In this document: piece after piece, positions 1 through 12,189 of the stretch
How positions within the stretch are numbered: the first letter of the stretch is position 1
Layout: each line of letters starts with the position of its first letter
Assembly: GCA_021826835.1 (NCBI GenBank)
Contig: JAKAYH010000029.1
Coordinates: forward strand, 1 to 12,189
Direction of reading: 5' to 3'
Source of the DNA: Thermoplasmata archaeon
GTDB taxonomy: Archaea > Thermoplasmatota > Thermoplasmata > Thermoplasmatales > Thermoplasmataceae
DNA length: 12,189 nt
The notes under the pieces: model-generated
Databases searched by the model: none
What the model was told of the DNA's origin: nothing
The model's input: the letters and a program-made list of their open reading frames with translations, nothing else
Position numbers and translations under genes: made by a program

Positions 1-21
1 TAATTATTAATCTTTACTTAA

Positions 22-970
22 TGCCATTCAAGCAAGGTGGTGAAGAACGGAACATGCCTTAGAACCATGGAGAACGGGATCATATTCCGCATCCAGAGAT
101 ATATCTGCAAAAACTGTAAATATTCATTTGTTGCACGTCCTCCCAATTACGGTTATGGAAAGCATTATCCTGAGGATGTAAAAGACAAGAGAGTGAAGAC
201 ATCCCTGAGGAAAGCTTCGTCCATGTTCCATATCATTGGAAACGTGATCATATCCCATGAGGTCATCAGGAGATATGTGCCTCCTGCACTTCCAGGCATC
301 ATGGAATCATCCGGTTACTTTGTTTATGACGAACAGTACTCCCATATCAGTGGTGTTGAAAATTACCGGGACCTTATGAAGGATTCAAAAAATGGAAACT
401 TTGTGGAAGAAATACTGGATGATCTGAAGGAAGACACACTGACAGGATTCTTCATAAGGGCACTGTCAAGGTTCAGCATCCCTGAAGAGATATTCATCAC
501 CACTGATGGATATCATTATGAATCCATATTGGAAGAAGTATCTGTAAGGTTGAATGCAAAAATAAGAAGGCAGAGATGCCTCTTGCACACAAGATGCAGC
601 TGCAAAGAGGATGATCAGGTACATGTTCTTCCAGAACGAAACAAACCTGAAGAAACTCGGAAAGAACATGGATGCAGTTGAAAAGATCACTGAAGGCATG
701 AATGAGAAGGAAATTGTAAAGATCATGCTGGAGAAGATCAACAGTTTGTATGGCGATGACAGGATCATTGCATCATTCCTCACATTCGTCATGAAGCACA
801 GGAAAGAGGTGTTCCTGTATCTTGAGGATCCAAAGATGGAGAAGACCTCAGACAAGGCGGAACAGCACTTCTCCATCCAGTCATGGCTGTTAAAGCATCG
901 GTTCAGGACAAAAGAGGGCCTGATAAGAACATCCTACTGGTATCACCGGTATCTATCAATCGGAATGTGA
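22..970 (+). pseudogene. Broken DDE-type transposase, 5'-truncated and frameshifted
   Basis: This is the remnant of an insertion-sequence transposase read in two frames. The first part (codons from 22, first possible start GTG at 37, stop at 681) carries half of an N-terminal zinc ribbon (CHSSKVVKNG, then CKNCKYSF), so the first cysteine of the ribbon is missing, and a stop at 19-21 precedes it. Two likely catalytic aspartates follow, in FVYDEQYSH and FITTDGYHY. Near RCLLHT, at about 585-610, the homology-like reading moves to the next frame, which continues to 970 and holds the likely third acidic residue in DKAEQHFSIQSW. A one-base indel explains this best; no typical slippery heptamer is visible. 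The architecture is that of a zinc-ribbon DDE transposase, but I cannot name the IS family with certainty. Inactive as it stands. No terminal repeats can be assigned. Confidence 0.8.
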
Positions 971-1056
971 CAATGTCAAATTTCAGATGAATTAAAGTCG
1001 GAGTCTGCGTAATTGATTAAAAATTATTAAGATCTGAAAGAATATAGTTCTATATT

Positions 1057-2241
1057 ATGACCACGGCAAAACGTTCAAGGCTTAATAAAAAATCAGAAGA
1101 TATCCTTAATGATCTGAAGGACTATTTGCCTTACGAATGAAAGGAATTGCTTCGTGACACTTCCACAACCAAAGATATAATCACGCAGTTTGCCAGAGAA
1201 CTTCCTGCCGAGGTTTATGAAATTGTAAGGGATAAAATAATATTGCAAATGTTTTCTATTGACAAATCATCCTTGTCAATCCTCTATTTTGTTGTTGATT
1301 CAAATATAATTATAAAGGATGCATTCAGAGTTGGCAAAGGAATGGTTTCTTCCACTGAGAGAATATTTTCATCCATATTTGTAAAGTTGTACGCGCCAAA
1401 GTCAATAGAAGAAGAAGTATTCTCACAAATAAAATTGGATCTTCCCAAAGGTTGTTCAATAGATATTGCAAACATTCAAGCAAAAAAGTTACTTTCAAAA
1501 ATAGAATTGATTGACGACACAAGACTGAAAGTTGAATACGCGGAGTTAAGTTAATTTCGAGAAAAATCCGGTAACGACGCTTCTTTCCTTAAGGTAGGAA
1601 TTGACTTGGGAATAAAAAGAATCATAACTGGCGACAAAGCATTCGATGAGCCTACGATCATACACAGATTCGAACTTGGAGAAGATGTAAGTATGATCGT
1701 ATCTGTTGAGGCTGGAGCTTTATCTCTTTCTTTCATTGTAGGTGCAACATATATTGGAACAATGGCAATCTATTGGATTTTATTATTGCTCTACAAGGTC
1801 CTTACTCAACTCTACGCTTTCCTAGCTTTGATAGTCTCTGCAGGAATTACTGGATTAGTGAATGTTTTTAGAAATCCACAAGACTGATTTTGGTATATTA
1901 TTATATTGATTTTATCCGGCACAGGAGTTGCATTTGTATTTTCTAAAGACATTAGAGAACACGCTATTAATTGGATCATGGATCTCTATGATTTTATTTC
2001 GAGCATATCAAAGTATGTGATGGAAGTACTTACCAATCTCTCGAAAGGTTCAGTGGATATCGCAGTAATATTCAAAGATGAACTTGGACCATATTTTGTA
2101 AGTGTTGGATTTGCATTGATGTTTTCGATTGCAGAAATGAATGAAAACTTGATGCGATATTCATACTTTTGGTGTCATCAAATTTTTACGTATATGGCGC
2201 CAAAATCCCATTTTGATCGCTCCATGTTAATGAGATTTTAG
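1057..2241 (+). pseudogene. PIN-domain protein with membrane C-terminus, three in-frame stops
   Basis: A single frame runs from ATG 1057 to TAG 2241, interrupted only by TGA at 1138, TAA at 1552 and TGA at 1885. Counting stops as residues, the PIN nuclease tetrad is readable: D81 in VVDSNIIIKD, the acidic cluster at 118-120 in KSIEEEVFSQ, D174 in SGNDASFL and D193 in RIITGDKAF. PIN domains are metal-dependent ribonucleases, often toxins or RNA-processing enzymes. From about residue 215 the protein becomes strongly hydrophobic, with several likely membrane segments (residues 217-275, 278-296 and one near YFVSVGFALMF). PIN plus membrane segments suggests a membrane-anchored nuclease, but I do not recognise the full architecture. 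An AT-rich TATA-like stretch at 1017-1030 lies about 30 bases before ATG 1057. The conserved frame and readable active site point to recent inactivation. No VapB-like antitoxin partner is seen. Confidence 0.72.
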
Positions 2242-2393
2242 ATCCCATGGTCAAGCCCATTAAATATATATTTATTTCTATAATATAGCCTTGGCGCATC
2301 ATTTAAGTTGTCGTACCATTAATAGTATGGCAAATTATGACGGTTATTCTATGTTAAACCATTCATCCTTGCAGAGCATCTTTTAACCTTACT
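2242..2393. other. Convergent AT-rich spacer, no gene recognised
   Basis: This spacer separates the 3' end of the PIN pseudogene (+) from the 3' end of the endonuclease gene (-). It holds an AT-rich run with the 12-base palindrome AAATATATATTT and only very short ORFs. No convincing terminator hairpin or T-tract is visible on either strand. Confidence 0.5.
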
Positions 2394-3449
2394 CTAAATG
2401 AACTGTCCATTGAATATTACCTTAAAGTTGTTAATATTTGCCTCATTTTTAACTTTGTCTAGTATTGCTTTACTTTTAATGTCCAAATCATTGTAACTGA
2501 TTTGCGAGGCCGTTGTCAACTTTAAAGCAGGAACTGAATTATAATTGAGTTGGTTGACAGTAACGGTACTTAGATTGGTGAAAATTATCATTTTAAGGAT
2601 ACCGTCTTTTATATCTTCCAGAGAGGGTAGTGCTCCATGACTTGTGTGTTTTGCTTCGACAAGGCATAAGTTTGTTCCGTCGAGAACTGCTTCATCAACG
2701 GTAAATGGATAAAAGCCATTGTAGAAATTAGTTATGGTTATTGTCGCCTTCTCTCCCTCTAGGGACTCTTTTGGTTGGATGGTTTTGCTCTCTCTGTATT
2801 GAGCATTTATTCCACGAGATCTGGATGCATCTCTGAAGATTTCTAAACCTGAAGCTAACTCGTCAATTTTCTTGCGGGCCCCATTTTCTAAATGCATTTT
2901 GACTCCTAAAGTGCGAGAAATATTGCTATAACTTTTGATGGCACATTCACCTATGTTTGCAACTTGCTCCAATTGGGTCATGTTCCAATGCAATGCATCT
3001 GAATAATATGATGCGATTTTCATAATGCGATCCCTGATGAAGTTGTGATCGAATTCCTGGTTTGTTATCTTGTTTTCATAATCTAAATTTTTATCGGCAT
3101 TATTGTAGTATGCTATGATGACATAGACACCGAGTAGAGACATCAATGAAATAGTGTCATACTGCAAAAAATCCCTATCTCCGTCAAACCCCTCATCCTT
3201 GTAAATTGGTATTACAGTAATTTTTTTCCCTGTGAACCCGAGTGTGTCATAAACTCGAGCGTAAGGATATGAACGAGTCCTTTTTGCAGATACCCATCGA
3301 CTAACTGCGAAGTAATCTCCATCCAGTTTTAATTTAAAAGCCCCTTTCATAGAAAGGATGGATCTCAATTGATCAATTGGATAAGCGAGAAGTTGGCTAC
3401 ACATTGTAGGAGTATACTTTATTTCTTTTATTTTTCCTAAAATGTCCAA
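2394..3449 (-). CDS. Probable Type II restriction endonuclease, PD-(D/E)XK-like
   Basis: 351 aa. The likely catalytic core is near the C-terminus: DE at 252-253, D257, then E265-A-K267 in CLVEAKHTSHG, which fits the D-x(n)-(D/E)xK pattern of PD-(D/E)XK nucleases, with a helix after it (LEDIKDGILKMIIF). An N-terminal block with RWVSAKRTRSYPYARVYDTL (51-70) and IYKDEGFDGDRDFLQYDT (82-99) is rich in charged residues and looks conserved; its role may be DNA binding or a second acidic site, which is inference. Translation probably starts at TTG 3449, directly after the TAG of the methyltransferase, with a GGGGGG stretch 8 bases upstream acting as ribosome binding site; an ATG at codon 16 (3404) is the alternative. 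The touching arrangement with a DNA methyltransferase is the main reason for calling it a restriction enzyme. The recognition site cannot be read from the sequence. It is the last gene of the - strand block. Confidence 0.7.
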   Translation of the reverse strand: MDILGKIKEIKYTPTMCSQLLAYPIDQLRSILSMKGAFKLKLDGDYFAVSRWVSAKRTRSYPYARVYDTLGFTGKKITVIPIYKDEGFDGDRDFLQYDTISLMSLLGVYVIIAYYNNADKNLDYENKITNQEFDHNFIRDRIMKIASYYSDALHWNMTQLEQVANIGECAIKSYSNISRTLGVKMHLENGARKKIDELASGLEIFRDASRSRGINAQYRESKTIQPKESLEGEKATITITNFYNGFYPFTVDEAVLDGTNLCLVEAKHTSHGALPSLEDIKDGILKMIIFTNLSTVTVNQLNYNSVPALKLTTASQISYNDLDIKSKAILDKVKNEANINNFKVIFNGQFI

Positions 3450-4319
3450 CTAGAGTGCCCCCCTTATTTGTCCTTCTGTGGTATTTTCTGCATAATCTCT
3501 CACAATCAATTCAAAGGTATCTCCTGTTAGATCTATACTCTCTTGGTTGCTAAAGCCGACTTTCTTCTTTATAATTGGTATAAGTTCCTTTTTCATTTCA
3601 ATTCCTATTGAGTTGCGTTCATTGAATCTTGCTACTTTCATGGTAGTTCCGGAACCTGAGAATGGATCTAAAACAGTTTCACCTACGTAAGAAAACAATT
3701 TTATCATCCGATACGGAAGTTCTTCAGGGTATGCCGCTATATTTTTTTCCAACTTTGAACCTGGGAGGACATTGGTCATTTCCCACAAAGTCTTATACCA
3801 TTTCTTCGCTTGAAACTCCTTCTTGTCAATTTTCGATGCTTCTCTAATATCTTTTGGAATGCATGAATAGTCAAATTTACCTTTTTGAAATATTATAATG
3901 CTTTCTAACAGATTATCTGGATAATAATACATAGGATATGGATTTTGAAGAACAACACCACTTCTTCGACTTATTCTCAAATAACCATCTGGTTTTTTCC
4001 AAATTATCCGGTCTCTATACCGGAACCCAGCATCGAGGAAAATTCTTGTTGCATCCGCCACTATGGGAAACTTCTCACCTTTAACAAGCATGTCGTCTAT
4101 ATTAAGGACAAAAATTCGACCAGGACTCAATACACGAAAACTCTCTTTGGCCATGTTTCTTAGCATCGAAAGATAGTGATCATATGAAGAATAGAGTTCC
4201 TCATAATCAAAAGGTGCATTGAAATAAGGAGGCGAAGTCACTGCTAGTTGCACTGAATTGTCTCCAATCTCATACATTTTTTCCGAACTGCCGATGATTA
4301 ATTTATGATTTGTAGACAT
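3450..4319 (-). CDS. Beta-class DNA amino-methyltransferase of a Type II R-M system
   Basis: 289 aa from ATG 4319. The enzyme transfers a methyl group from S-adenosylmethionine to an exocyclic amino group of a base in DNA. Catalytic motif IV is TSPPY near the N-terminus (residues 31-35 if counted from GTG 4328) and the AdoMet-binding motif LDPFSGSGTT lies near residues 220-229, followed by NSIGIEM. Motif IV before motif I is the permuted order of the beta class; (S)PPY favours N4-cytosine, though N6-adenine cannot be excluded. AAYPEELPYRMIKLF just before motif I is also typical. GTG 4328 would add three residues, but GGGTG placed 6 bases before ATG 4319 favours the ATG. The gene follows the 52-aa ORF by a few bases and abuts the endonuclease gene, so all three are probably co-transcribed. 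Its role would be to protect host DNA from the neighbouring nuclease. Confidence 0.92.
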   Translation of the reverse strand: MSTNHKLIIGSSEKMYEIGDNSVQLAVTSPPYFNAPFDYEELYSSYDHYLSMLRNMAKESFRVLSPGRIFVLNIDDMLVKGEKFPIVADATRIFLDAGFRYRDRIIWKKPDGYLRISRRSGVVLQNPYPMYYYPDNLLESIIIFQKGKFDYSCIPKDIREASKIDKKEFQAKKWYKTLWEMTNVLPGSKLEKNIAAYPEELPYRMIKLFSYVGETVLDPFSGSGTTMKVARFNERNSIGIEMKKELIPIIKKKVGFSNQESIDLTGDTFELIVRDYAENTTEGQIRGAL

Positions 4320-4334
4320 ATTGAACACCCGTTA

Positions 4335-4493
4335 CTAAATGAAGACTGTGAGCTCACTCCCTTTTGCTTTGGAGTCTGTGCCTTTGTAGTTGCAAAAATA
4401 GCATTCTACGGGTTCTTCATATTTCACAGGATTATATAGTTTGACTAAATATTTTAAATTGCCGAAGGATAGATATACAATTCTAGATGTCAT
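4335..4493 (-). CDS. Small CxxC protein (52 aa) upstream of the methyltransferase
   Basis: This short ORF starts at ATG 4493 and ends at TAG 4335, filling most of the spacer between the winged-helix gene and the methyltransferase. The product has a hydrophobic N-terminal half (TSRIVYLSFGNLKYLVKLYN) and a single cysteine pair in VECYFCNYKGTDSK, which resembles half of a zinc knuckle; a dimer could complete a metal site, but that is inference. Its stop lies 15 bases before the methyltransferase ATG, so translational coupling is likely. There is no helix-turn-helix, so it does not look like a classic R-M controller (C) protein. I do not recognise the family. Support is moderate: position, orientation, an uninterrupted frame and plausible composition. 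No strong ribosome binding site is seen, so translation may be leaderless. Confidence 0.5.
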   Translation of the reverse strand: MTSRIVYLSFGNLKYLVKLYNPVKYEEPVECYFCNYKGTDSKAKGSELTVFI

Positions 4494-4564
4494 AAATTAT
4501 ACTCTCATCATAACAATTGATAATTCTATTTTCTCAACATGTCAATCGCATTCTATTTTCTCTA
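4494..4564 (-). promoter_or_regulatory. Possible promoter region for the small CxxC gene and R-M genes
   Basis: This 71-base AT-rich spacer is the widest gap without an ORF in the - strand block. An AATTATC-like element at about 4520-4527 lies some 27-34 bases upstream of ATG 4493, at about the right place for a weak archaeal TATA box giving a leaderless or nearly leaderless transcript. The box is poor, so read-through from the upstream genes is equally possible. Confidence 0.3.
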
Positions 4565-5449
4565 TTATTTATAGGCTTTAATGTTATAAGAGAGATTCGA
4601 TTTAATGTCATTCACATTAAAGTCTGTTGAATTGCCCAGAATGGCAATTCTGTCCTCTTCTATTTCCTTAAGCAGTTCAACAAAAGCTATTCTTTCTTTA
4701 AAATCTAAAGGTTTATGATCGAATATACGTCTAAGGAGGAATGACAATTTTCCAGGGTCTATTCCTTGGCTTGAAACTAAGTCAAGATAATGACTTCCTC
4801 CCCCAGACTTGACATAGATAGAATCTGTTTTTAACTGTATGTCATCCAATCGCCGAAAGAAAGTTACAGCTGATTTCCCCTCTGTGCCACTGTGTGATAG
4901 TTTTTCACTCAAAGTATTTTCAACACCTAACATTGAAGAAAGAGATTCACCTACTGTTCCAAGACACTTATTAATCGCAATGTCTTCTTTTTCCCTCAGT
5001 AATGCAATATTTATTGAATAATTCTTTGTGAATGAAAGAAGTCCCATTAGAGTAATTAAGGCACATTTTTCTTCAAAATTAAGCGTATTATTTGCTTTCT
5101 TCAAAAAATCACCGTAAAACGTTTGATTTATATGATCCAATAAGTCATTAACTGAATTGGACTCTATTAACAAATTGTATTTCAAGATCAAATCTCCCTT
5201 GGCAGTAATGCACATCTCCCCTTTAGCCTCACTTGTATAATCGAGCACATTGAGTTCAATTAGATCTTTTAATCTATCAATAGGAATTCTAATTTCATTG
5301 GCTTCGAATGTCATTCCTCTGAAAAATTTCATTCTTTCAGAATCTCTCTTTTTTAAAATCTTCATTATGTCTAGCTTTTCTATAGATTTTCCCTTCTGTG
5401 ATACTATTTCCTTTAGAATGTTTATTTCGTCTTGATTTACGGGCTTCAT
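4565..5449 (-). CDS. Winged-helix-like protein, putative partner of the SMC-like ATPase
   Basis: 294 aa from ATG 5449. I do not recognise the family. The N-terminal third (to about residue 100) alternates short helices and ends in a beta-hairpin-like stretch, LNVLDYTSEAKGEMCITAKGDLIL, which resembles a winged-helix domain. The middle is mostly helical (FEEKCALITLMGLLSFTKN) and the C-terminal half contains KSAVTFFRRLDD and SGGGSHYLDLVSS. A TTG at 5467 overlaps the TGA of the SMC-like gene and would add six residues, but GAGGTG located 10 bases upstream of ATG 5449 supports the ATG. The stop-start proximity implies translational coupling with the ATPase. Winged-helix proteins are common accessory subunits of SMC complexes (MukE, MksE, JetB), so a structural partner role is plausible; this is inferred from context only. 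A transcriptional regulator is the other option. Confidence 0.6.
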   Translation of the reverse strand: MKPVNQDEINILKEIVSQKGKSIEKLDIMKILKKRDSERMKFFRGMTFEANEIRIPIDRLKDLIELNVLDYTSEAKGEMCITAKGDLILKYNLLIESNSVNDLLDHINQTFYGDFLKKANNTLNFEEKCALITLMGLLSFTKNYSINIALLREKEDIAINKCLGTVGESLSSMLGVENTLSEKLSHSGTEGKSAVTFFRRLDDIQLKTDSIYVKSGGGSHYLDLVSSQGIDPGKLSFLLRRIFDHKPLDFKERIAFVELLKEIEEDRIAILGNSTDFNVNDIKSNLSYNIKAYK

Positions 5450-5463
5450 AAACAATTTACACC

Positions 5464-7521
5464 TCAAACATCAATCGCTTCTACCATCACATGATCCATA
5501 TTTCTCTCGGCTAAATTCAGAGCTGCAAAGAGTATTTTACCCTCTCTTACTTGATTCTTAATTTCAGTTAAGAGAATATTGATGTTCTTTTCATCCATTA
5601 TCCCGATCTCGTCTAGCAGGAGTATTTTTTTTCTACCACCATATTCTTGTTTCATTTTTGCAAGTAAAGAATTTAACGCGTTAAATCCTGTGCTTATATC
5701 GTTAAATGTGAAAGGATAACCATTCTCCACATTGAAGGTTTCTTTGATTAGATCTATTTTCACAAGCTTCCAGCTACGTCCTTCATGGAATACTACTTCT
5801 AAGATGTTCGCCAAGTATTTTCCTAAAGCATCATAAAAAGGTGTGTCAGAAGAGGAAGTTTTGCTCTTATCGAGTATATTCGCTCCGCTCATGTTGCTGA
5901 ATAATTGCAACCACCCGTTTAGCTTAAATTGTATATTGCTGGCAATTTTGTCGAGATGACTCAGGTCATTTTTTGTATATTTTGGTGGAGTGGTTGAGGT
6001 TCTGGCGTTTTCTTCCAGTAGGGTTTTTGTAATTCTAATTTCATTTGTCACTTCTTCTATTTTCTGTTTCAATTTGTCAAATTCAGACTTAGTCGCAACA
6101 TATTCATCTTCATTGACTGAACGGTAATCAATTTGCTTTTCCTCATCTGATAGAGTCTGGTATTCATCCTTAATCTCTAAGTACTTTTTATATAAATCAT
6201 CATGCTTAGATTCAAGTTCATTCAACCTCTCCTTCATTTTATCAAGATCCTCCTGATTGTCCTCTTCAAAAGATGGAATCTTCTTCCACGTTGTCCTTAA
6301 ATCTTCAAAACTGTTTTTCAAATCGTAAACTTTATTTTTCACATTTAAAAATTTTTGCTTTTCGCTCAACTCTTTGCTCAATAACCTCTTTCGGGACTCT
6401 AAATCAGTCAAAAATTGGTTAAGAGTTTTACCATTGGTCCCCGGTATTTCCGGATTAACAGTAACGTATTTCTTTAGAACATCTATAATATTCTCAAGAA
6501 ACTCAAGTTCTTTATCATTCTTAGTGGGTTTATTTCTCACATCATTCTCTAATTTATGATTCATTTCAACTAATAAAGATAGGGTTTTATTAAATAAGAA
6601 CTCACTAAAGTCTTCGGGTCCTTTGAATTCTGTTATTTTTGTTATTCGATTATCTAAATTGAACAAATTTTTTAAAAACTCATTTTCGCTGATACTTTTC
6701 TCTAGCTCTTTTATTATCAATTTGATGTCATTGAGGGAATCAACAAAATTTTGTTTAGCTTTAGAAAATTTTGTCTGCTTGGCTTTTTTTGCCTTGGGAT
6801 CCATTCGTTTCTCAAGTTCATTAATCTGTTCTATTAATAAATTTATTTGATCAGGCCCCTCATTATATTTTTTAACTACATATGATTTTCTTAACTTCTC
6901 GTAGTTGTCAGTAACAGAATTCATTCGTTGTCTGTAATTTTCTAATTTTGTTTCTTCCTCGTTTAATTTGGTTTCTAACTCGCGTAATCGAGAAGTTTGA
7001 TTATCATATGTACTTATATTTTCATAGTGAGACTGTATATCTTTCAGGTAAGTCTTAGTGTAATCAATATATTCCCCTATCTCCCTCTTAATTACGACGA
7101 GAGATGAGTTTAGTTTTTTCGTGATTTCATCGGGCACGTCGAAAATGAGTTGAAATTGATCTGAGAAAGCAGTCTTGTTGCAAGGGGCTTTGTTTACTAA
7201 AACCCTCATTTCCTCGATATTTTTATTTTTCAATGACGAATTAATTTCAATATTTTTATCTATGCTCGAAATTTCAAAGAAAAAGCTAAAATCCTTGGTG
7301 TCTTCAGCTATCAATCTTTTCATTTTATTTTTAATTTCAGGACTTAATTCTTCGGAGTTTAAACCAAACATACCCATCGCTAGAATTTGCATCATTGTGC
7401 TTTTGCCCAACCCGTTTGAACCTTTAAATATGAAAATATTGTGATTTTCCTTCCCAGTATCTGGATAAGAATTATGGTATTCCGAATTTCCTCTTCGAAG
7501 TATATATTCTAGTTTAAACAT
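5464..7521 (-). CDS. SMC/Rad50-like coiled-coil ATPase
   Basis: 685 aa. The N-terminus has a Walker A motif, GSNGLGKST (residues 34-42). The C-terminus has Walker B ILLLDE (about 633-638), preceded by a signature-like helix start, NDISTGFNALN (about 607-617). Between them lie long charged helices from about 165 to 530, predicted by eye as coiled coil (for example LETKLNEEETKLENYRQRM and FDKLKQKIEEVTNEIRI). This is the layout of SMC, Rad50 and MukB proteins, which clamp DNA by ATP-driven head engagement. Differences: there is no CxxC zinc hook, the only cysteine being C114 or so in KAPCNKTAF, and the signature is S-T-G rather than LSGG. At 685 aa it is shorter than most Rad50 proteins. ATG 7521 follows the 34-aa ORF by three bases, with GGAG 9 bases upstream. 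Its place after nurA and herA suggests it takes the Rad50 role there. Confidence 0.85.
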   Translation of the reverse strand: MFKLEYILRRGNSEYHNSYPDTGKENHNIFIFKGSNGLGKSTMMQILAMGMFGLNSEELSPEIKNKMKRLIAEDTKDFSFFFEISSIDKNIEINSSLKNKNIEEMRVLVNKAPCNKTAFSDQFQLIFDVPDEITKKLNSSLVVIKREIGEYIDYTKTYLKDIQSHYENISTYDNQTSRLRELETKLNEEETKLENYRQRMNSVTDNYEKLRKSYVVKKYNEGPDQINLLIEQINELEKRMDPKAKKAKQTKFSKAKQNFVDSLNDIKLIIKELEKSISENEFLKNLFNLDNRITKITEFKGPEDFSEFLFNKTLSLLVEMNHKLENDVRNKPTKNDKELEFLENIIDVLKKYVTVNPEIPGTNGKTLNQFLTDLESRKRLLSKELSEKQKFLNVKNKVYDLKNSFEDLRTTWKKIPSFEEDNQEDLDKMKERLNELESKHDDLYKKYLEIKDEYQTLSDEEKQIDYRSVNEDEYVATKSEFDKLKQKIEEVTNEIRITKTLLEENARTSTTPPKYTKNDLSHLDKIASNIQFKLNGWLQLFSNMSGANILDKSKTSSSDTPFYDALGKYLANILEVVFHEGRSWKLVKIDLIKETFNVENGYPFTFNDISTGFNALNSLLAKMKQEYGGRKKILLLDEIGIMDEKNINILLTEIKNQVREGKILFAALNLAERNMDHVMVEAIDV

Positions 7522-7524
7522 AAA

Positions 7525-7629
7525 TTATTGCTCCATCAAATGACCTGATCCAGCAATGATCTTCATAAACAATTCAAATTCCTCATCTGTCAATAATTCC
7601 TTAAAAAGATTTTTAATTTCTTTTGTCAT
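7525..7629 (-). CDS. 34-aa ORF between the HerA-like and SMC-like genes
   Basis: This ORF starts at ATG 7629 and stops with TAA at 7525-7527. A near-perfect ribosome binding site, GGAGGTG (7636-7642 on this strand), sits 6 bases before the ATG. The start overlaps the last codons of the HerA-like gene in another frame, and the stop lies just before the ATG of the SMC-like gene. The product, MTKEIKNLFKELLTDEEFEL followed by FMKIIAGSGHLMEQ, looks like two short amphipathic helices with no signal peptide, membrane segment or cysteine. Coupling on both sides makes it likely to be translated. It could be a small adaptor linking HerA to the ATPase, or a leader that couples their translation; the function is unknown. 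Confidence 0.62.
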   Translation of the reverse strand: MTKEIKNLFKELLTDEEFELFMKIIAGSGHLMEQ

Positions 7630-9187
7630 TGAAAGCACCTCCTGGAGATAATGGAAATTTTACAAATCTTAGAGCACTCATTCCATAAATTCGAGTAATT
7701 GCAAAGCCCTCTTTTAACGCCTCAGATTCAACCTCAGTTCCTTTCACATCTATATTCTTGGAATCGGATCTAAAATGGATCTTTGTATTCACAATGCTAC
7801 TAATTCCTTTTGGCATGTCCTCTGGATTTTGTGACGCAAAAACTACCCCAATTCCTAAACTTCTACCTTTTCTCGTTATCGCATCAAGGGATTGTAATGC
7901 CTCTCTCCTCCTAGCATCTCCATAGAACTCATGGACTTCATCTATGATGATTAAAATTGGAACATTATTGTCTCCCCGACTTTTTGTTTCATAAATTTTA
8001 TCTAAAATGTCTCTAAGAAGGACTCCGCCAAAACCAATTTCACCCTTATCACCAACGTCTATCACGGACATCTTTCCAGTCTCAAGAATATCATCAACAT
8101 TAAGCTCAGTTGCTTCCGGTATATCGAAATACTGGGTATTTTTTGACAGCGTTCGTATTATATTATTAAACGTTCCTGAATGTAAAGTTATAGTGTAATT
8201 TTCCTCTCTTATGCTCATTGCATTAAGGTCTTTTGCGCCTTCCTCATTTAGATAATGAACAAACGCTCCTAGGGTGTCACCTAGTCGCATCTTTTTAATT
8301 TGCCAATATCTGAAAATGGCAGGAAGATGATCTGCGCCTTGAACTGATAGGTTTTGTACGAGAGCGGTCAATGACTCTGGGTCTATATTCTCTGTCTTCA
8401 GAGTTATTTTAATACACTTTTCTTTACTCACTTGTTGAGAATAAGAATTTATTGAATTTCCAGGATAATAAATTCGAAGGGCTGAAACTCCATGTGGCGA
8501 AATTCCCATTGTATTCCATTCACTCTTTATCTGCTCATTGGTAATGGTACTTGGTTTATCCATTCGAAGTAGGTCTTCTCCTTTAACGTTAATAGCTAAC
8601 ACTGCACCAGGTTTACCGTTAAATCCGTCTAGGACATTGCTGGTAAAATATTGAGCCATGTATTTCATAGCGACGGTTTTGCCGCTTCCTGTTTGACCAG
8701 TAATCAATATCTGGTGAAAAAACACGTCATCAGGGACTTTAGCTAGAACGAGCTTTCCATTAAAATCTCTAAGTATTTGATTATTTCGACCGTATGCTGA
8801 CCCCATAAATATTGGCATTCCAACAGTATTTCCCAAAGCAGAATCAATTTCTTCTTGTGTGGACAATCTAGCAACAGTTTGCGGTATTATAAAGCTGCTT
8901 TTTCCATCGTATCGATTGGGTAGTTCCATTATTCTCGTTGCATATATCATATTCTTGGTTTTTTGATCTTGTAGCAATGCGTTATACCCTAGATCCACTA
9001 TCATAGGGGAGGGATCGTATGGGCTATACTGAGAACTACTCTCTACCCTTAAGATAAATTTTACATTTTTTTCTCCCTCTATCGTTAAATAAGAGCCAAT
9101 GTGAATCAATCCAGTTTCATCAGAATTATCGTTCTTAGAAACTAATGCGATTTTACCCGAATCTTCTTTTAAAACTATCCATTTCAT
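7613..9187 (-). CDS. herA: HerA-like hexameric DNA translocase/helicase
   Basis: 524 aa. HerA proteins form hexameric rings of the FtsK/HerA class that move along duplex DNA with ATP and stimulate the nuclease NurA. The N-terminal ~100 residues are beta-rich, fitting the HAS-barrel domain. Walker A is GQTGSGKT (164-171), Walker B is ILIIIDEVHE (411-420), and the downstream sensor region ASQNPEDMP (461-469) and the arginines in TRKGRSLGIG (438-447) fit the family; the C-terminal SALRFVKFPLSP region is also HerA-like. Length is in the usual HerA range. ATG 9187 lies 4 bases after the NurA-like stop, and an AGGTG ribosome binding site overlaps that stop, so the two are translationally coupled. 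Because its neighbours are not Mre11-Rad50, it is probably a defence-associated copy rather than the housekeeping one; that is inference. SIR2- or DUF4297-type partners of other HerA defence systems are absent. Confidence 0.9.
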   Translation of the reverse strand: MKWIVLKEDSGKIALVSKNDNSDETGLIHIGSYLTIEGEKNVKFILRVESSSQYSPYDPSPMIVDLGYNALLQDQKTKNMIYATRIMELPNRYDGKSSFIIPQTVARLSTQEEIDSALGNTVGMPIFMGSAYGRNNQILRDFNGKLVLAKVPDDVFFHQILITGQTGSGKTVAMKYMAQYFTSNVLDGFNGKPGAVLAINVKGEDLLRMDKPSTITNEQIKSEWNTMGISPHGVSALRIYYPGNSINSYSQQVSKEKCIKITLKTENIDPESLTALVQNLSVQGADHLPAIFRYWQIKKMRLGDTLGAFVHYLNEEGAKDLNAMSIREENYTITLHSGTFNNIIRTLSKNTQYFDIPEATELNVDDILETGKMSVIDVGDKGEIGFGGVLLRDILDKIYETKSRGDNNVPILIIIDEVHEFYGDARRREALQSLDAITRKGRSLGIGVVFASQNPEDMPKGISSIVNTKIHFRSDSKNIDVKGTEVESEALKEGFAITRIYGMSALRFVKFPLSPGGAFNDKRN

Positions 9188-9191
9188 GCTA

Positions 9192-10220
9192 TCACCTATT
9201 AAACCTAATCCCGTTCATTGTTGGTGTAAAATTGAACATTCTAAGTTCTGAATTTTTTAAATATTTAAGTACTTCCCTTGCATATTTTTCGGCAATTGCA
9301 ATAGTTCTTATCTGAGGGTTTTTGTCGTTCCCGTTAACATTTAATAGATAAAAGCTAAGATCAACCACATCATTGATGATCGATCGATATTTTTCAAAAG
9401 TGTTAATATCAAATTCGATCCTTTGTACGGTAAGGTCAGAAGTTCTGAAGTATGCGAATATTTTTCCATTTTCTTTATTTTTCTGGTCAACGTATTTAAA
9501 AAAAGGGCTTCTTTCTCCCATCTTGAAATTCTTATGTGCCCAGTCCATGTCTGAATTATATTTATTTTTTAAATTATCATCATTATCAGTCACTAGATTG
9601 CTATTACTGTTCTTAACGAAGAAAACCGGTATAGCTCCCTTATCCAATAATCTATTATTCAGGTCTCTGGTTGCGTAGCTTAGATTACCACCTATCAAAG
9701 GGCCGTCAATAAAAACCAAAGAATCATTTGGCACATATTCTAATAAAAAATTCAATCTATCATTTGTATAATCTTTTTGCATTTCCTCTTCTATTTTCGG
9801 AGTACACCTTAAAACCATATCTACTTTAGAATATTTTTGGGAGCGAGTATAGAAATAGTAAGTGCCCAATACTACAGGTTTGAATTCATCCATTCCATGC
9901 AATGCTAAGCAGTGTGTAGTCAAACACGAACTACCTTCTAGCCCTTGAAAGATATACATACTTTCATCATAGCCTACAATAGTGGTAAACTTAGAAACCA
10001 TTTTTTGCCCATTTTGGATATTGAGGATTTTTAAGTCAGTATCTTCTATCTTCGTTAACAAATTTGTGCCTGAGGGATATGTAAAGGGATCAAAATCAAA
10101 ATCAGTTGGATTCGACGTTAGAAGCATTGAAAATTTATTTTTCTCTATGGCTTTAGTAGTATTATAGAAATCAGGGTGAATTATTATTTTTCCATATTCA
10201 ATATTATTATCTGTGACCAT
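9192..10220 (-). CDS. nurA: NurA-like nuclease, partner of HerA
   Basis: 342 aa. NurA is a manganese-dependent DNA exo/endonuclease that docks on HerA and degrades the 5' strand during end resection. Supporting motifs in order: an acidic strand TIVGYDESMYIF (about residues 79-90) in the place of motif I; VFIDGPLIGG (about 169-178), a characteristic NurA core strand; FKMGERSPFFKY (about 233-244); and a C-terminal helix QIRTIAIAEKYAREVLKY like the usual NurA end. Motif I lacks the common DGS form (here YDES), so the active site should be compared with characterised members. The gene is first in the - strand block and directly upstream of the HerA-like gene. ATG 10220 is supported by a TATA-like box about 25 bases upstream, implying a leaderless transcript. 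The family call rests on motifs plus the herA neighbour. Confidence 0.82.
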   Translation of the reverse strand: MVTDNNIEYGKIIIHPDFYNTTKAIEKNKFSMLLTSNPTDFDFDPFTYPSGTNLLTKIEDTDLKILNIQNGQKMVSKFTTIVGYDESMYIFQGLEGSSCLTTHCLALHGMDEFKPVVLGTYYFYTRSQKYSKVDMVLRCTPKIEEEMQKDYTNDRLNFLLEYVPNDSLVFIDGPLIGGNLSYATRDLNNRLLDKGAIPVFFVKNSNSNLVTDNDDNLKNKYNSDMDWAHKNFKMGERSPFFKYVDQKNKENGKIFAYFRTSDLTVQRIEFDINTFEKYRSIINDVVDLSFYLLNVNGNDKNPQIRTIAIAEKYAREVLKYLKNSELRMFNFTPTMNGIRFNR

Positions 10221-10244
10221 CTAAGGTAGATATGCGATGATGTA

Positions 10245-10259
10245 AATTTAAATCTTTGC
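10245..10259 (-). promoter_or_regulatory. TATA box with BRE-like bases for the nurA-herA block
   Basis: On the - strand, AAAG followed by ATTTAAATTT ends about 25 bases before the NurA-like ATG at 10220. This is the normal spacing from an archaeal TATA box to the transcription start, so the start codon would be at or near the 5' end of the mRNA. No ribosome binding site precedes this ATG, which agrees with leaderless initiation. Confidence 0.55.
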
Positions 10260-10286
10260 ATATATCTGTTGGCTCTCATTACCAAT

Positions 10287-11255
10287 ATGGAGTTGATAGG
10301 GAATGCTGGGAAAGTAGTAAAAAAGAGCATAGAAGACTACAAATCTCTTCATGGATTTAAGTTTGACCTTAGTGTTGGCACCTATGGGGATATCATCCAT
10401 CATTTGATAATAGAGCATGGGAAGGCCCATTGTGTGGAGTCCTCTGACTCAGATATCATTGAGTCATGCATACAGGGTGTTTCCACTATGAATGTCATGA
10501 ACGTTGTATTATCAGCTGGAGCTGAGGATATATCCGAGTCCTGTGTCTCAACACCTGAGTATGAACTTGACTCAAAGGTAAATAATTCCTTGAAATGAAA
10601 ATATACACAATATGAAATTCATCTGCATAGATGCAAAACACTTCAAGACAAGAGAAAGTTGGTAAGTATGGAAAAAGAGCGTTTTATGTGCGAATTTGCA
10701 TTGACAGTGGGGGGTCAAGAGATCTTTTCATGCAAGCTCTGTGATATGGAACTGAGATGTTGTTGGAATCTTTCTTCTATGAGCTGAAAGAGAAGGGCCT
10801 TAGAGGCATTGAACTGGTGATATCAGATGACCACATGGGAATACATGAATATGTGACAAGATCGTTTTAAGGTGCAGCATGTCAGTTCTGCCATTTGAAT
10901 TTCATGAGAAACCTCATGAAATTAATACCAAAGAAGAGACAGTCGTCTAAAATTCAGAACGCAAACTAGGCCCTCGAAAATTAATCCCCTGTATCAAGGA
11001 CACAGGATACTCTTATTAAAGGGGAGATTGGACAAGGCATCTGACATGTTTGAGAGATGGCATTCTTCCCGGTATAATTATAAATCATATAATGAATCAT
11101 GCCAGAAAAGACTGAGAACAACAGACGTGCTTGAATGACTGAATCTGGAATTCAAGAGACGTGCGAGAAAGATTGGAGCATTTCCATCTGAAAATTCTCT
11201 TCTGAGACTTGTTATAACTATTATGATGGATATGAATGAAGAGTGGAACACATGA
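10287..11255 (+). pseudogene. Degenerate IS256 (Mutator)-family transposase
   Basis: This is the remnant of a Mutator-type transposase with several frameshifts and stops. An intact-looking 5' ORF (ATG 10287 to TGA 10598, 103 aa; TTG 10269 would add six residues) carries QGVSTMNVMNV and AEDISESCVSTPEYELDSKV, which match the GMSTRDV...ISxxTVSxIT stretch that precedes the catalytic domain. In other frames downstream come FICIDAKHFKTRES (first catalytic D), KGLRGIELVISDDHMG (second D), a C..CHLNFMRNLMK block (the family's WQRC-HFMRN motif) and finally RLRTTDVLE, a stop, then LNLEFKRRARKIGAFPSEN. The reading frame is about 320 codons against roughly 400 in the family, so internal sequence is also lost, probably between HGKAHC and DIIESC. 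The first 45 residues match nothing I recognise. It is not functional. Confidence 0.82.
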
Positions 11256-11318
11256 AGTTCGTGTACACTATAAAACATTTACAAAATTATTTACAAATAA
11301 GAATTAATTAAACACATG

Positions 11319-11326
11319 TTTTTAAT
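11319..11326 (+). promoter_or_regulatory. TATA-like box for the MscS-family gene
   Basis: TTTTTAAT lies with its centre about 24 bases before ATG 11347 and no ribosome binding site intervenes. This fits a leaderless archaeal promoter for the channel gene. Confidence 0.42.
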
Positions 11327-11346
11327 CGTTGAGTGTATATCTAAAT

Positions 11347-12189
11347 ATGGCAACAAGCATAAGAAAAGAACTTCAGATGATACTCCTCGCCATAGCTGCC
11401 ACAGTTGCAATCACTGTTCTAATTCAATACTTGTTTCAGTACTTGGATATATATTTTCCCCAACTTACTCAATATGATATTTACATCCGTTATTCAACAT
11501 ATGCAGTAATAATATTTGGATTTGCTATCGTCATAAGTCACATTACAAAAAATGCCCTGGACATCCTTTCCGAAAAAATAGGAGGAAGAAACCTGAATGG
11601 GCTTTACACCATTCTCAGGGCCATCATATATGGTTCTGCAATAACCGTCATTCTCCTAATTATGGGAATTAGCCTGACAGGAGCTATTCTTGGTGGTACT
11701 GTAGGAGGCTTGGTTCTATCATTCGCACTACAGAATACCATATCCAGTGTCCTATCGGGCCTCATGCTCTCATCTTCGGGTGTCCTCAAGCCAAAGGAAG
11801 CAGTGTACATTTTTTCATGGATGTTTGACAACCCGGTGCTTGGAGTTGTGAAAGACATCAGGATACTTACCACCCAAATTAAGTCCATAGACGGCCTGAT
11901 AATTGATCTGCCAAGCACTGCACTTCTTTCTTCATCCCAATTCACTGATCTCACTTACCCTGGAGACAGAAAACTTCTTTCTCACCATATAATTATGGGA
12001 TTTGCTGTGGATGTTCCAGTCTGGGAAATGATGGAGATTGGAACAAAAAATCTTGAAGCTGCTAAAGAAACGGTTGGAATTGTGAAATTCCAGGCAAATT
12101 TCCAGATAAAGGGATTCAATACAAACTCGATCAAGGTCGTTTTTGTCTTTAAGAATATGTCCTTATACAACGATTGCGTTAATCTGATC
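11347..12189 (+). CDS. MscS-family mechanosensitive channel (3' end outside window)
   Basis: 281 codons are open to the window edge, so the protein is partial at its C-terminus. MscS channels sit in the cytoplasmic membrane and open under tension to release solutes after osmotic downshock. Hydrophobic segments lie at about residues 10-30, 48-66 and 88-107, followed by the pore helix at 111-141 with the family's Gly/Ala/Ser-rich pattern (GAILGGTVGGLVLSFALQNT). After it comes the beta domain (SSGVLKPKEAVYIFSW, then GVVKDIRILTTQIKSIDG and IIDLPSTALL), which matches the usual MscS order although IPN is LPS here. The cytoplasmic alpha/beta part begins near residue 210. ATG 11347 is chosen for its leaderless-type promoter spacing. 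It looks like a resident gene outside the accessory island. Confidence 0.85.
   Translation, partial: MATSIRKELQMILLAIAATVAITVLIQYLFQYLDIYFPQLTQYDIYIRYSTYAVIIFGFAIVISHITKNALDILSEKIGGRNLNGLYTILRAIIYGSAITVILLIMGISLTGAILGGTVGGLVLSFALQNTISSVLSGLMLSSSGVLKPKEAVYIFSWMFDNPVLGVVKDIRILTTQIKSIDGLIIDLPSTALLSSSQFTDLTYPGDRKLLSHHIIMGFAVDVPVWEMMEIGTKNLEAAKETVGIVKFQANFQIKGFNTNSIKVVFVFKNMSLYNDCVNLI

Follow-up and report, generated by a model that had tools for sequence, protein, structure and literature searches.

A five-gene NurA–HerA–SMC cassette

We analysed a 12,189-nt stretch of Thermoplasmata archaeon DNA (GenBank assembly GCA_021826835.1, contig JAKAYH010000029.1, positions 1 to 12,189; hereafter the window) that carries a cassette of five genes encoding a NurA-family nuclease, a HerA-family DNA translocase, the product of a small open reading frame (ORF), an SMC/Rad50-like ATPase and a winged-helix (wH) protein. 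The cassette recurs as a unit in archaea and bacteria, commonly with a DNA methyltransferase close by. In the window, the genes for NurA, HerA, the small ORF, the SMC-like protein and wH follow one another on the minus strand, with a restriction–modification (R–M) pair after them on the same strand:

9192–10220, minus: NurA-family nuclease, first gene; 342 aa; Pfam NurA 2.7e-7, above cut-off
7613–9187, minus: HerA-family DNA translocase ATPase; 524 aa; HerA_C 1.2e-11, above cut-off
7525–7629, minus: small ORF; 34 aa counted from ATG; no known family assigned (family libraries not scanned)
5464–7521, minus: SMC/Rad50-like coiled-coil ABC ATPase without zinc hook; 685 aa; AAA_23 2.2e-7, above cut-off
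4565–5449, minus: wH partner; 294 aa from ATG, or 300 aa with a TTG start at 5467
3450–4328, minus: DNA methyltransferase (N6/N4 amino class), member of the R–M pair; N6_N4_Mtase 3.4e-44, MTase_II 4.2e-75
2394–3449, minus: type II restriction endonuclease; PADLOC REase_II 1.2e-91
10221–10270, minus: putative operon promoter region; archaeal TATA-like AT-rich stretch, by sequence inspection alone

Neighbouring cassette genes are separated by gaps or joined by overlaps of 3–17 nt: a 4-nt gap between NurA and HerA, a 17-nt overlap between HerA and the small ORF, a 3-nt gap between the small ORF and the SMC-like gene, and either a 4-nt overlap (TTG start) or a 14-nt gap (ATG start) between the SMC-like and wH genes. 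A broken operon was rejected, all five frames being open. The methyltransferase begins 237 nt past the cassette end on the same strand, and a Pfam scan of the adjoining restriction enzyme (2394–3449) returned nothing above cut-off. These results agree with an earlier note on this DNA, which had described five co-directional genes in this order, coupled gene ends and a Type II R–M pair just downstream. Its further statement that Mre11 is missing also stands: Pfam, run on nine ORFs of the window, identified no metallophosphoesterase, and none appears among annotated neighbours of the other cassettes described below, with the exception of one SbcD match upstream of the cassette in locus L013. A sigma-70 scan, which is no test for an archaeon, gave no excess of sites over shuffled sequence (27 against 24.9).

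The cassette recurs as a unit in archaea and bacteria

Using the HerA profile alone, we gathered 27 loci, window included. A genome-contig scan yielded 14 loci and a virus-contig scan 2, and four phylum surveys at E ≤ 1e-30 flagged 18 genomes, 6 of them already known, from which 12 new loci were fetched with their flanks; the 27 do not include L014 and L016, whose HerA matches are short and have 24–25% identity. Relatives of HerA at E ≤ 1e-5 numbered 775 among 7998 candidates scored. Every survey match had E ≤ 1.3e-174, so the cassette HerA family is discrete. In profile searches, all 27 loci have NurA beside HerA together with a complete or partial SMC-like gene, which is cut where the contig ends within it (L002, L005 and L006) and is a 104-aa fragment in L009. 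The wH profile matches 20 of the 27 loci; of the other seven, these same four are cut or broken, and the three Bacteroidota loci L007, L012 and L013 carry in the wH position a 285–291-aa gene, mutually alike, that the profile misses. The Bacteroidota loci also represent a variant arrangement (L007:13814–14824, L012:4089–5105 and L013:12038–13045) in which NurA, encoded on the opposite strand, converges with the gene that takes the place of wH and shares a 4-nt overlap with it.

Pairwise distances among the core proteins of the 20 complete loci are strongly correlated (HerA–SMC 0.94, SMC–wH 0.93, HerA–wH 0.90 and NurA versus the others 0.75–0.77), each with P 0.0002, the minimum possible with 5000 permutations. 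The unit has been passed on largely whole, NurA somewhat more loosely. Recurrence in 27 loci rejects chance adjacency of the cassette genes and contradicts the first of two outcomes that the earlier note had named as refuting it, that the five genes would not be found together elsewhere.

Hosts span archaea and bacteria. Taxa given in the record titles are Thermoplasmata/Thermoplasmatota, Methanosarcinales, Methanococcoides, Bathycorpusculum, Prometheoarchaeum, Mucilaginibacter, Psychroserpens, Chryseobacterium, Crocinitomicaceae, Neomarinimicrobiota and Hyphomicrobiales. Many of these records are metagenome-assembled genomes (MAGs), and the Hyphomicrobiales contig, only 3.7 kb long, may have been binned wrongly. 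The phylum surveys found the cassette in 8 of 389, 1 of 395, 5 of 392 and 4 of 398 genomes (0.3–2%), and within two genera it is carried by 1 of 30 and 1 of 10 genomes, one species each. Occurrence is thus patchy, as it is for defence genes, and the distribution is that of an accessory, horizontally moving system and not of core repair. Phage and plasmid records searched gave no match. A 45-kb contig from the virus collection (L015) holds a whole cassette with a convergent D12-like methyltransferase, and in L011 (7151–9615) a Mu-type transposase gene with an ATPase-like partner (PADLOC label DrmD, 2.8e-33) lies just beyond the methyltransferase, which points to mobile surroundings.

Nuclease and ATPase motifs and the small ORF are retained

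Across 24 of 24 aligned cassette NurAs, Y84-D85-E86, D172-G173, K203-N204-S205, N222-S223-D224, R267 and E269 are invariant. In NurA of T. kodakarensis, Asp49 is essential (PMC12977600), and we read cassette D85 as its probable counterpart from the motif rather than from an alignment; three canonical NurAs that we aligned were too divergent for active-site numbers to be transferred. HerA retains an intact Walker A motif, GQTGSGKT (K170), and a DEVH motif (D416, E417, V418 and H419), the numbered residues being invariant in 21 of 21 aligned proteins. The nearest solved chain to the window HerA is 4d2i HerA (4.9e-11). The closest named relative of the window HerA is from Cuniculiplasma (62%), in keeping with a thermoplasmatal archaeon as the likely source. 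Searches of the PDB found no sequence relatives for the cassette NurA profile, the wH profile or one canonical NurA, and matches of the SMC profile were P-loop and coiled-coil noise.

The window SMC-like protein has no CxxC, and among 24 cassette SMCs of at least 600 aa only that of L007 has one (residue 475). Walker B reads DE in 22 of the 23 cassette SMCs in which the motif was found. Residues 358–365 of the window protein form an EIPGTNGK-like motif between the coiled-coil arms, at the position of the Rad50 zinc hook; I359, P360, G361 and K365 are invariant in 11 close sequences, and the motif is not retained in more distant cassette SMCs. The 294-aa length of the wH protein is shared by an identical protein, P0133. 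Its fold, a guess from sequence in the earlier note, was borne out by a structure model, though fold matches are weak and Foldseek gave none at E ≤ 0.001.

The small ORF has AGGAGGTG directly upstream of its ATG. Across the loci, the gap between HerA and the SMC-like gene (91–199 nt) contains a small ORF in 26 of 27 cases, often with a ribosome-binding-site-like stretch; L009 lacks one, and in L012 the automatic pick is poor and a 68-aa ORF is the better choice. In two close locus pairs, each of the six genes tested shows more silent than replacement differences per site; the small ORF is among them, and its changes are mostly silent (pS 0.58 and 0.90 vs pN 0.14 and 0.15). Position, ribosome-binding-site-like stretches and these silent changes led us to reject the idea that the small ORF is spurious.

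A DNA methyltransferase is a frequent neighbour

The METHYLTRANSFERASE link is seen in the largest neighbour family, 15 proteins of 269–309 aa assigned to MethyltransfD12 (three members scanned). With all classes counted, a methyltransferase is found no more than 5 kb from the cassette at 20 of the 27 loci (window, L001, L003, L004, L006–L008, L011–L013, L015, L035, L036 and L040–L046). Sixteen of these are supported by Pfam or a D12 genome search, and those in L006, L012 and L013 (C5) and L015 (D12) by BLAST clustering with a scanned member together with motifs. The 23 host genomes contain 26 D12 matches in total (one with internal stops), of which 13 fall within 5 kb of the cassette where 0.17 would be expected (binomial P 4e-22, with rounded genome sizes). 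Fourteen loci have a D12 gene, and in eight of them (L003, L004, L011, L035, L036, L042, L043 and L044) it stands on the cassette strand and is at most 106 nt away or overlapping. The class (D12, N6/N4 or C5) varies among loci while the core is constant. For the window methyltransferase, the nearest solved chain is 2zie, a putative modification methylase (3.3e-25).

Other defence-related genes also occur in these neighbourhoods. A PD-Lambda-5_A-like gene accompanied by a D12 methyltransferase was seen in L004:1310–3509, L001:2584–4841, L008:3179–5502 and L035:16945–19397, with the methyltransferase at most 8 kb from the cassette: it abuts the cassette in L004, where the pair runs directly into NurA on one strand, and is 7.5 kb off in L035. 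The L001 protein matches PADLOC PD-Lambda-5_A at 3.8e-190, and those of L004, L008 and L035 were assigned as its BLAST-cluster mates. PD-Lambda-5 itself is described as a separate two-gene, 'RM+Abi'-like system (PMC9519451), unlike the cassette. In L007, a C5 methyltransferase occurs with MutH nearby. In L038 (13656–16508), a type IV methyl-directed restriction enzyme (PADLOC 6.6e-218) lies directly downstream of the cassette, at a locus with no methyltransferase seen nearby.

The cassette differs from known SMC and HerA systems

Operons with mre11–rad50 are the best-known setting of NurA and HerA (PMC12977600). The cassette resembles the archaeal nurA–herA–mre11–rad50 operon in its adjacent NurA and HerA families, coiled-coil ABC ATPase and tight organization, but it lacks Mre11, its SMC of about 690 aa has no zinc hook CxxC, and it has an extra small ORF and a wH gene. 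SMC-like proteins also serve the Wadjet and Lamassu systems (PMC10586767). The window SMC partially matches PADLOC LmuB (best 4.9e-6), but cassette NurA, HerA and wH have no LmuA or LmuC match (PADLOC; the small ORF was outside the scan), the cassette Walker B differs from that of LmuB, which generally has Q (PMC10586767), and the cassette effector would be HerA–NurA. With Wadjet (JetABCD/MukBEF), the cassette shares an SMC-like ATPase with a wH partner, but NurA, HerA and wH match none of JetA, JetB and JetD, and the SMC is shorter and only weakly similar to JetC (best 1.5e-4). The window cassette, lacking Mre11 and a hook, is not the canonical operon; nor is it Wadjet or, by partner content, Lamassu.

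A HerA ring coupled to an effector is likewise found in HerA–nuclease pairs (such as Sir2–HerA) and 'HerA/FtsK capture' systems, whereas in the cassette the effector would be NurA, and SMC-like and wH genes are added. Many HerA/FtsK defence systems are described in PMC10853773 and PMC12839542, from whose main texts the word NurA is absent; the portions of PMC4158269 and PMC12458937 that were searched do not mention NurA, and a review of SMC-based immunity (PMC10586767) contains neither NurA nor HerA. The best PADLOC match of the window HerA is the HerA of PDLC01055 ('Type III coevolved'; 3.3e-19), a 67-bit match far under scores within the cassette HerA family. Pyrobaculum nurA–csm6–herA clusters at CRISPR arrays (PMC3396285) similarly represent an extra, defence-linked nurA–herA pair besides a putative repair pair; they differ in being CRISPR-linked rather than methyltransferase-linked, with no SMC-like or wH gene in the text searched. 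In the PADLOC scan (PADLOC-DB release of 2023), NurA and wH matched nothing, and the matches of HerA and SMC were partial. In keeping with the earlier note, which knew of no named system with this gene order, that release gave no matching system, and none was named in the titles and abstract openings listed by a literature search that mostly excluded subscription papers and preprints. We would file the cassette as a combination of SMC-sensor and HerA-nuclease immunity.

Canonical repair genes are often present in the same genomes. SbcD/Mre11 matches at E ≤ 1e-5 occur in 19 of 23 host genomes (over the model's cut-off in 3), and a second, canonical HerA match at E ≤ 1e-10 in 13 of 23 (none over the model's cut-off, as was true of controls); none of the listed canonical HerA places is the cassette. 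A NurA search covered 10 host genomes: four (G002, G004, G007 and G1579) have a NurA besides that of the cassette, in three (G001, G006 and G009) the cassette NurA is the sole one found, and the bacteria G003, G005 and G008 gave no match in a search for which even the cassette's own NurA falls short. The earlier note had proposed checking for a separate mre11–herA–nurA locus, and would be refuted if the cassette were the only herA–nurA locus with mre11 at a distance; in relatives of the window the picture is mixed. The separate locus coexists with the cassette in G167 and G1185, where nurA, herA, mre11 and a rad50-like gene stand together (L048 and L051), and in G004, where NurA, HerA and Mre11 matches lie within 2.6 kb on contig C36. 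It was not found in G001 and G006. Two further loci (L047 and L052) combine herA, mre11 and a rad50-like gene but have no adjacent nurA; upstream of herA, where a canonical nurA would have been expected, the genes encode a transposase and a protein whose weak matches are unrelated.

A proposed DNA-degradation complex and its alternatives

We propose that the cassette may encode a self-contained complex that degrades invading DNA and in many cases is guarded by a DNA methyltransferase, a reading on which we are evenly divided. The SMC/Rad50-like ATPase would dimerize and, with the wH protein as a MukF/kleisin-like or DNA-reading partner, would clamp or scan DNA and spot non-self by missing methylation and/or free or unusual ends. 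The clamp would then load or release the HerA ring, with the small protein as coupler or inhibitor, and HerA would pump duplex DNA into the NurA dimer so that both strands are cut; a D12, N6/N4 or C5 methyltransferase beside the cassette would mark host DNA. In T. kodakarensis, HerA–NurA needs ATP to cut duplex DNA and cuts both strands, leaving no obvious overhang; antiviral defence is raised as a possible role in that study (PMC12977600). The earlier note had likewise suggested a defence complex, though without the methyltransferase link, and the recurring unit, congruent distances, patchiness and neighbouring methyltransferase, R–M and defence genes favour that idea. The gene set, its recurrence and the methyltransferase linkage are shown, while complex formation, each mechanistic step, gating by methylation and the defence role are what we infer.

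Several observations weigh against the methyltransferase link within this reading. Four uncut loci (L010, L037, L038 and L039) show no methyltransferase nearby, L010 with 3.5 kb on one side and neighbours of housekeeping type; methyltransferase distances track those of the core loosely (r 0.51–0.67, P 0.0002–0.0012); and the window methyltransferase has its own restriction enzyme. The methyltransferase is therefore a frequent, exchangeable partner and no member of the invariant core; it may be part of separate R–M systems, as apparently in the window. The cassette could then be an end-degradation helper: R–M or other nucleases would cut the invader, and the SMC-like protein would bind the ends and load HerA–NurA for RecBCD-like clean-up, the methyltransferase being that of the restriction enzyme. 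We consider this explanation unlikely, though it draws on the complete R–M pair downstream of the window cassette, the PD-Lambda-5-like pair near four loci, the C5 methyltransferase and MutH of L007, and the known action of Rad50 complexes on DNA ends (PMC10586767) and of HerA–NurA in feeding duplex DNA to NurA (PMC12977600). Against it, only one of 10 neighbours tested in nine D12-bearing loci, that of L036, resembled a restriction enzyme (some neighbours lay outside the test), and no methyltransferase was seen near the four uncut loci.

The same reading is also pressed from the side of repair. G001 and G006, both MAG records, have mre11 elsewhere, and neither NurA nor HerA (E ≤ 1e-10) was found a second time. 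The SbcD match of G009 (3.3e-55) is an ORF of L013 at 443–1642, upstream of the cassette on the same strand; it is followed by an SbcC-like gene (1011 aa, PADLOC LmuB 7.3e-14, CxxC at 524), which one 768-aa gene separates from the cassette HerA, the three genes spanning 443–6983. We rejected this 1011-aa SMC-like gene as another defence gene, since the adjoining SbcD match makes SbcC likelier. Mre11–Rad50 is therefore not always far from the cassette, and L013, G001 and G006 speak against a clean separation from repair, though they leave the patchy distribution and the methyltransferase link as they were. An alternative repair or end-resection machine, with the SMC-like protein in place of Mre11–Rad50, would suit these cases, the intact nuclease and ATPase motifs and the operons from which NurA and HerA are best known. 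It is nevertheless very improbable given the rarity of the cassette in four phyla and two genera and the SbcD/Mre11 and second HerA matches in most host genomes, and it leaves the methyltransferase linkage unexplained. Surveillance of plasmids or other replicons, in which DNA topology would be sensed by Wadjet-type loop extrusion and the methyltransferase would be a mere defence-island neighbour, is improbable too: the 685-aa cassette SMC contrasts with the weakly touched JetC profiles of 1068–1472 positions, and methyltransferase enrichment is far above chance.

A broader form of the DNA-degradation proposal, which we advance tentatively and with more doubt than belief, is that the cassette represents an ancient, horizontally spread class of methylation-guarded immunity common to archaea and bacteria. 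Clamp and reader would test the mark of an interchangeable methyltransferase, and failure would license HerA to feed DNA whole into the NurA dimer, a peptide of about 35–60 residues serving as the licence. If true, this would be restriction by processive shredding rather than site cutting, which would fit archaeal HerA–NurA cutting both strands rather than resecting. The defence reading, if right, would unite SMC-like foreign-DNA sensors and HerA-driven nucleases as lines of research. The methyltransferase class changes against a constant core, and methyl-gating is therefore directly testable; on the same condition the disputed HerA–NurA pair would gain a defence role that is genetically testable because relatives of the cassette occur in the named bacterial strains Mucilaginibacter straminoryzae RS28 and Psychroserpens algicola Dm15.

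Other features of the window

Broken-looking transposase-like remnants, identified by sequence reading, flank the island at 37–970 and 10269–11257 (three ORFs scanned, no Pfam match above cut-off). An ORF at 1147–1554 has a PIN_2 match below Pfam cut-offs, and an MscS-like channel gene (11329–12189), also below Pfam cut-offs, runs off the window end.
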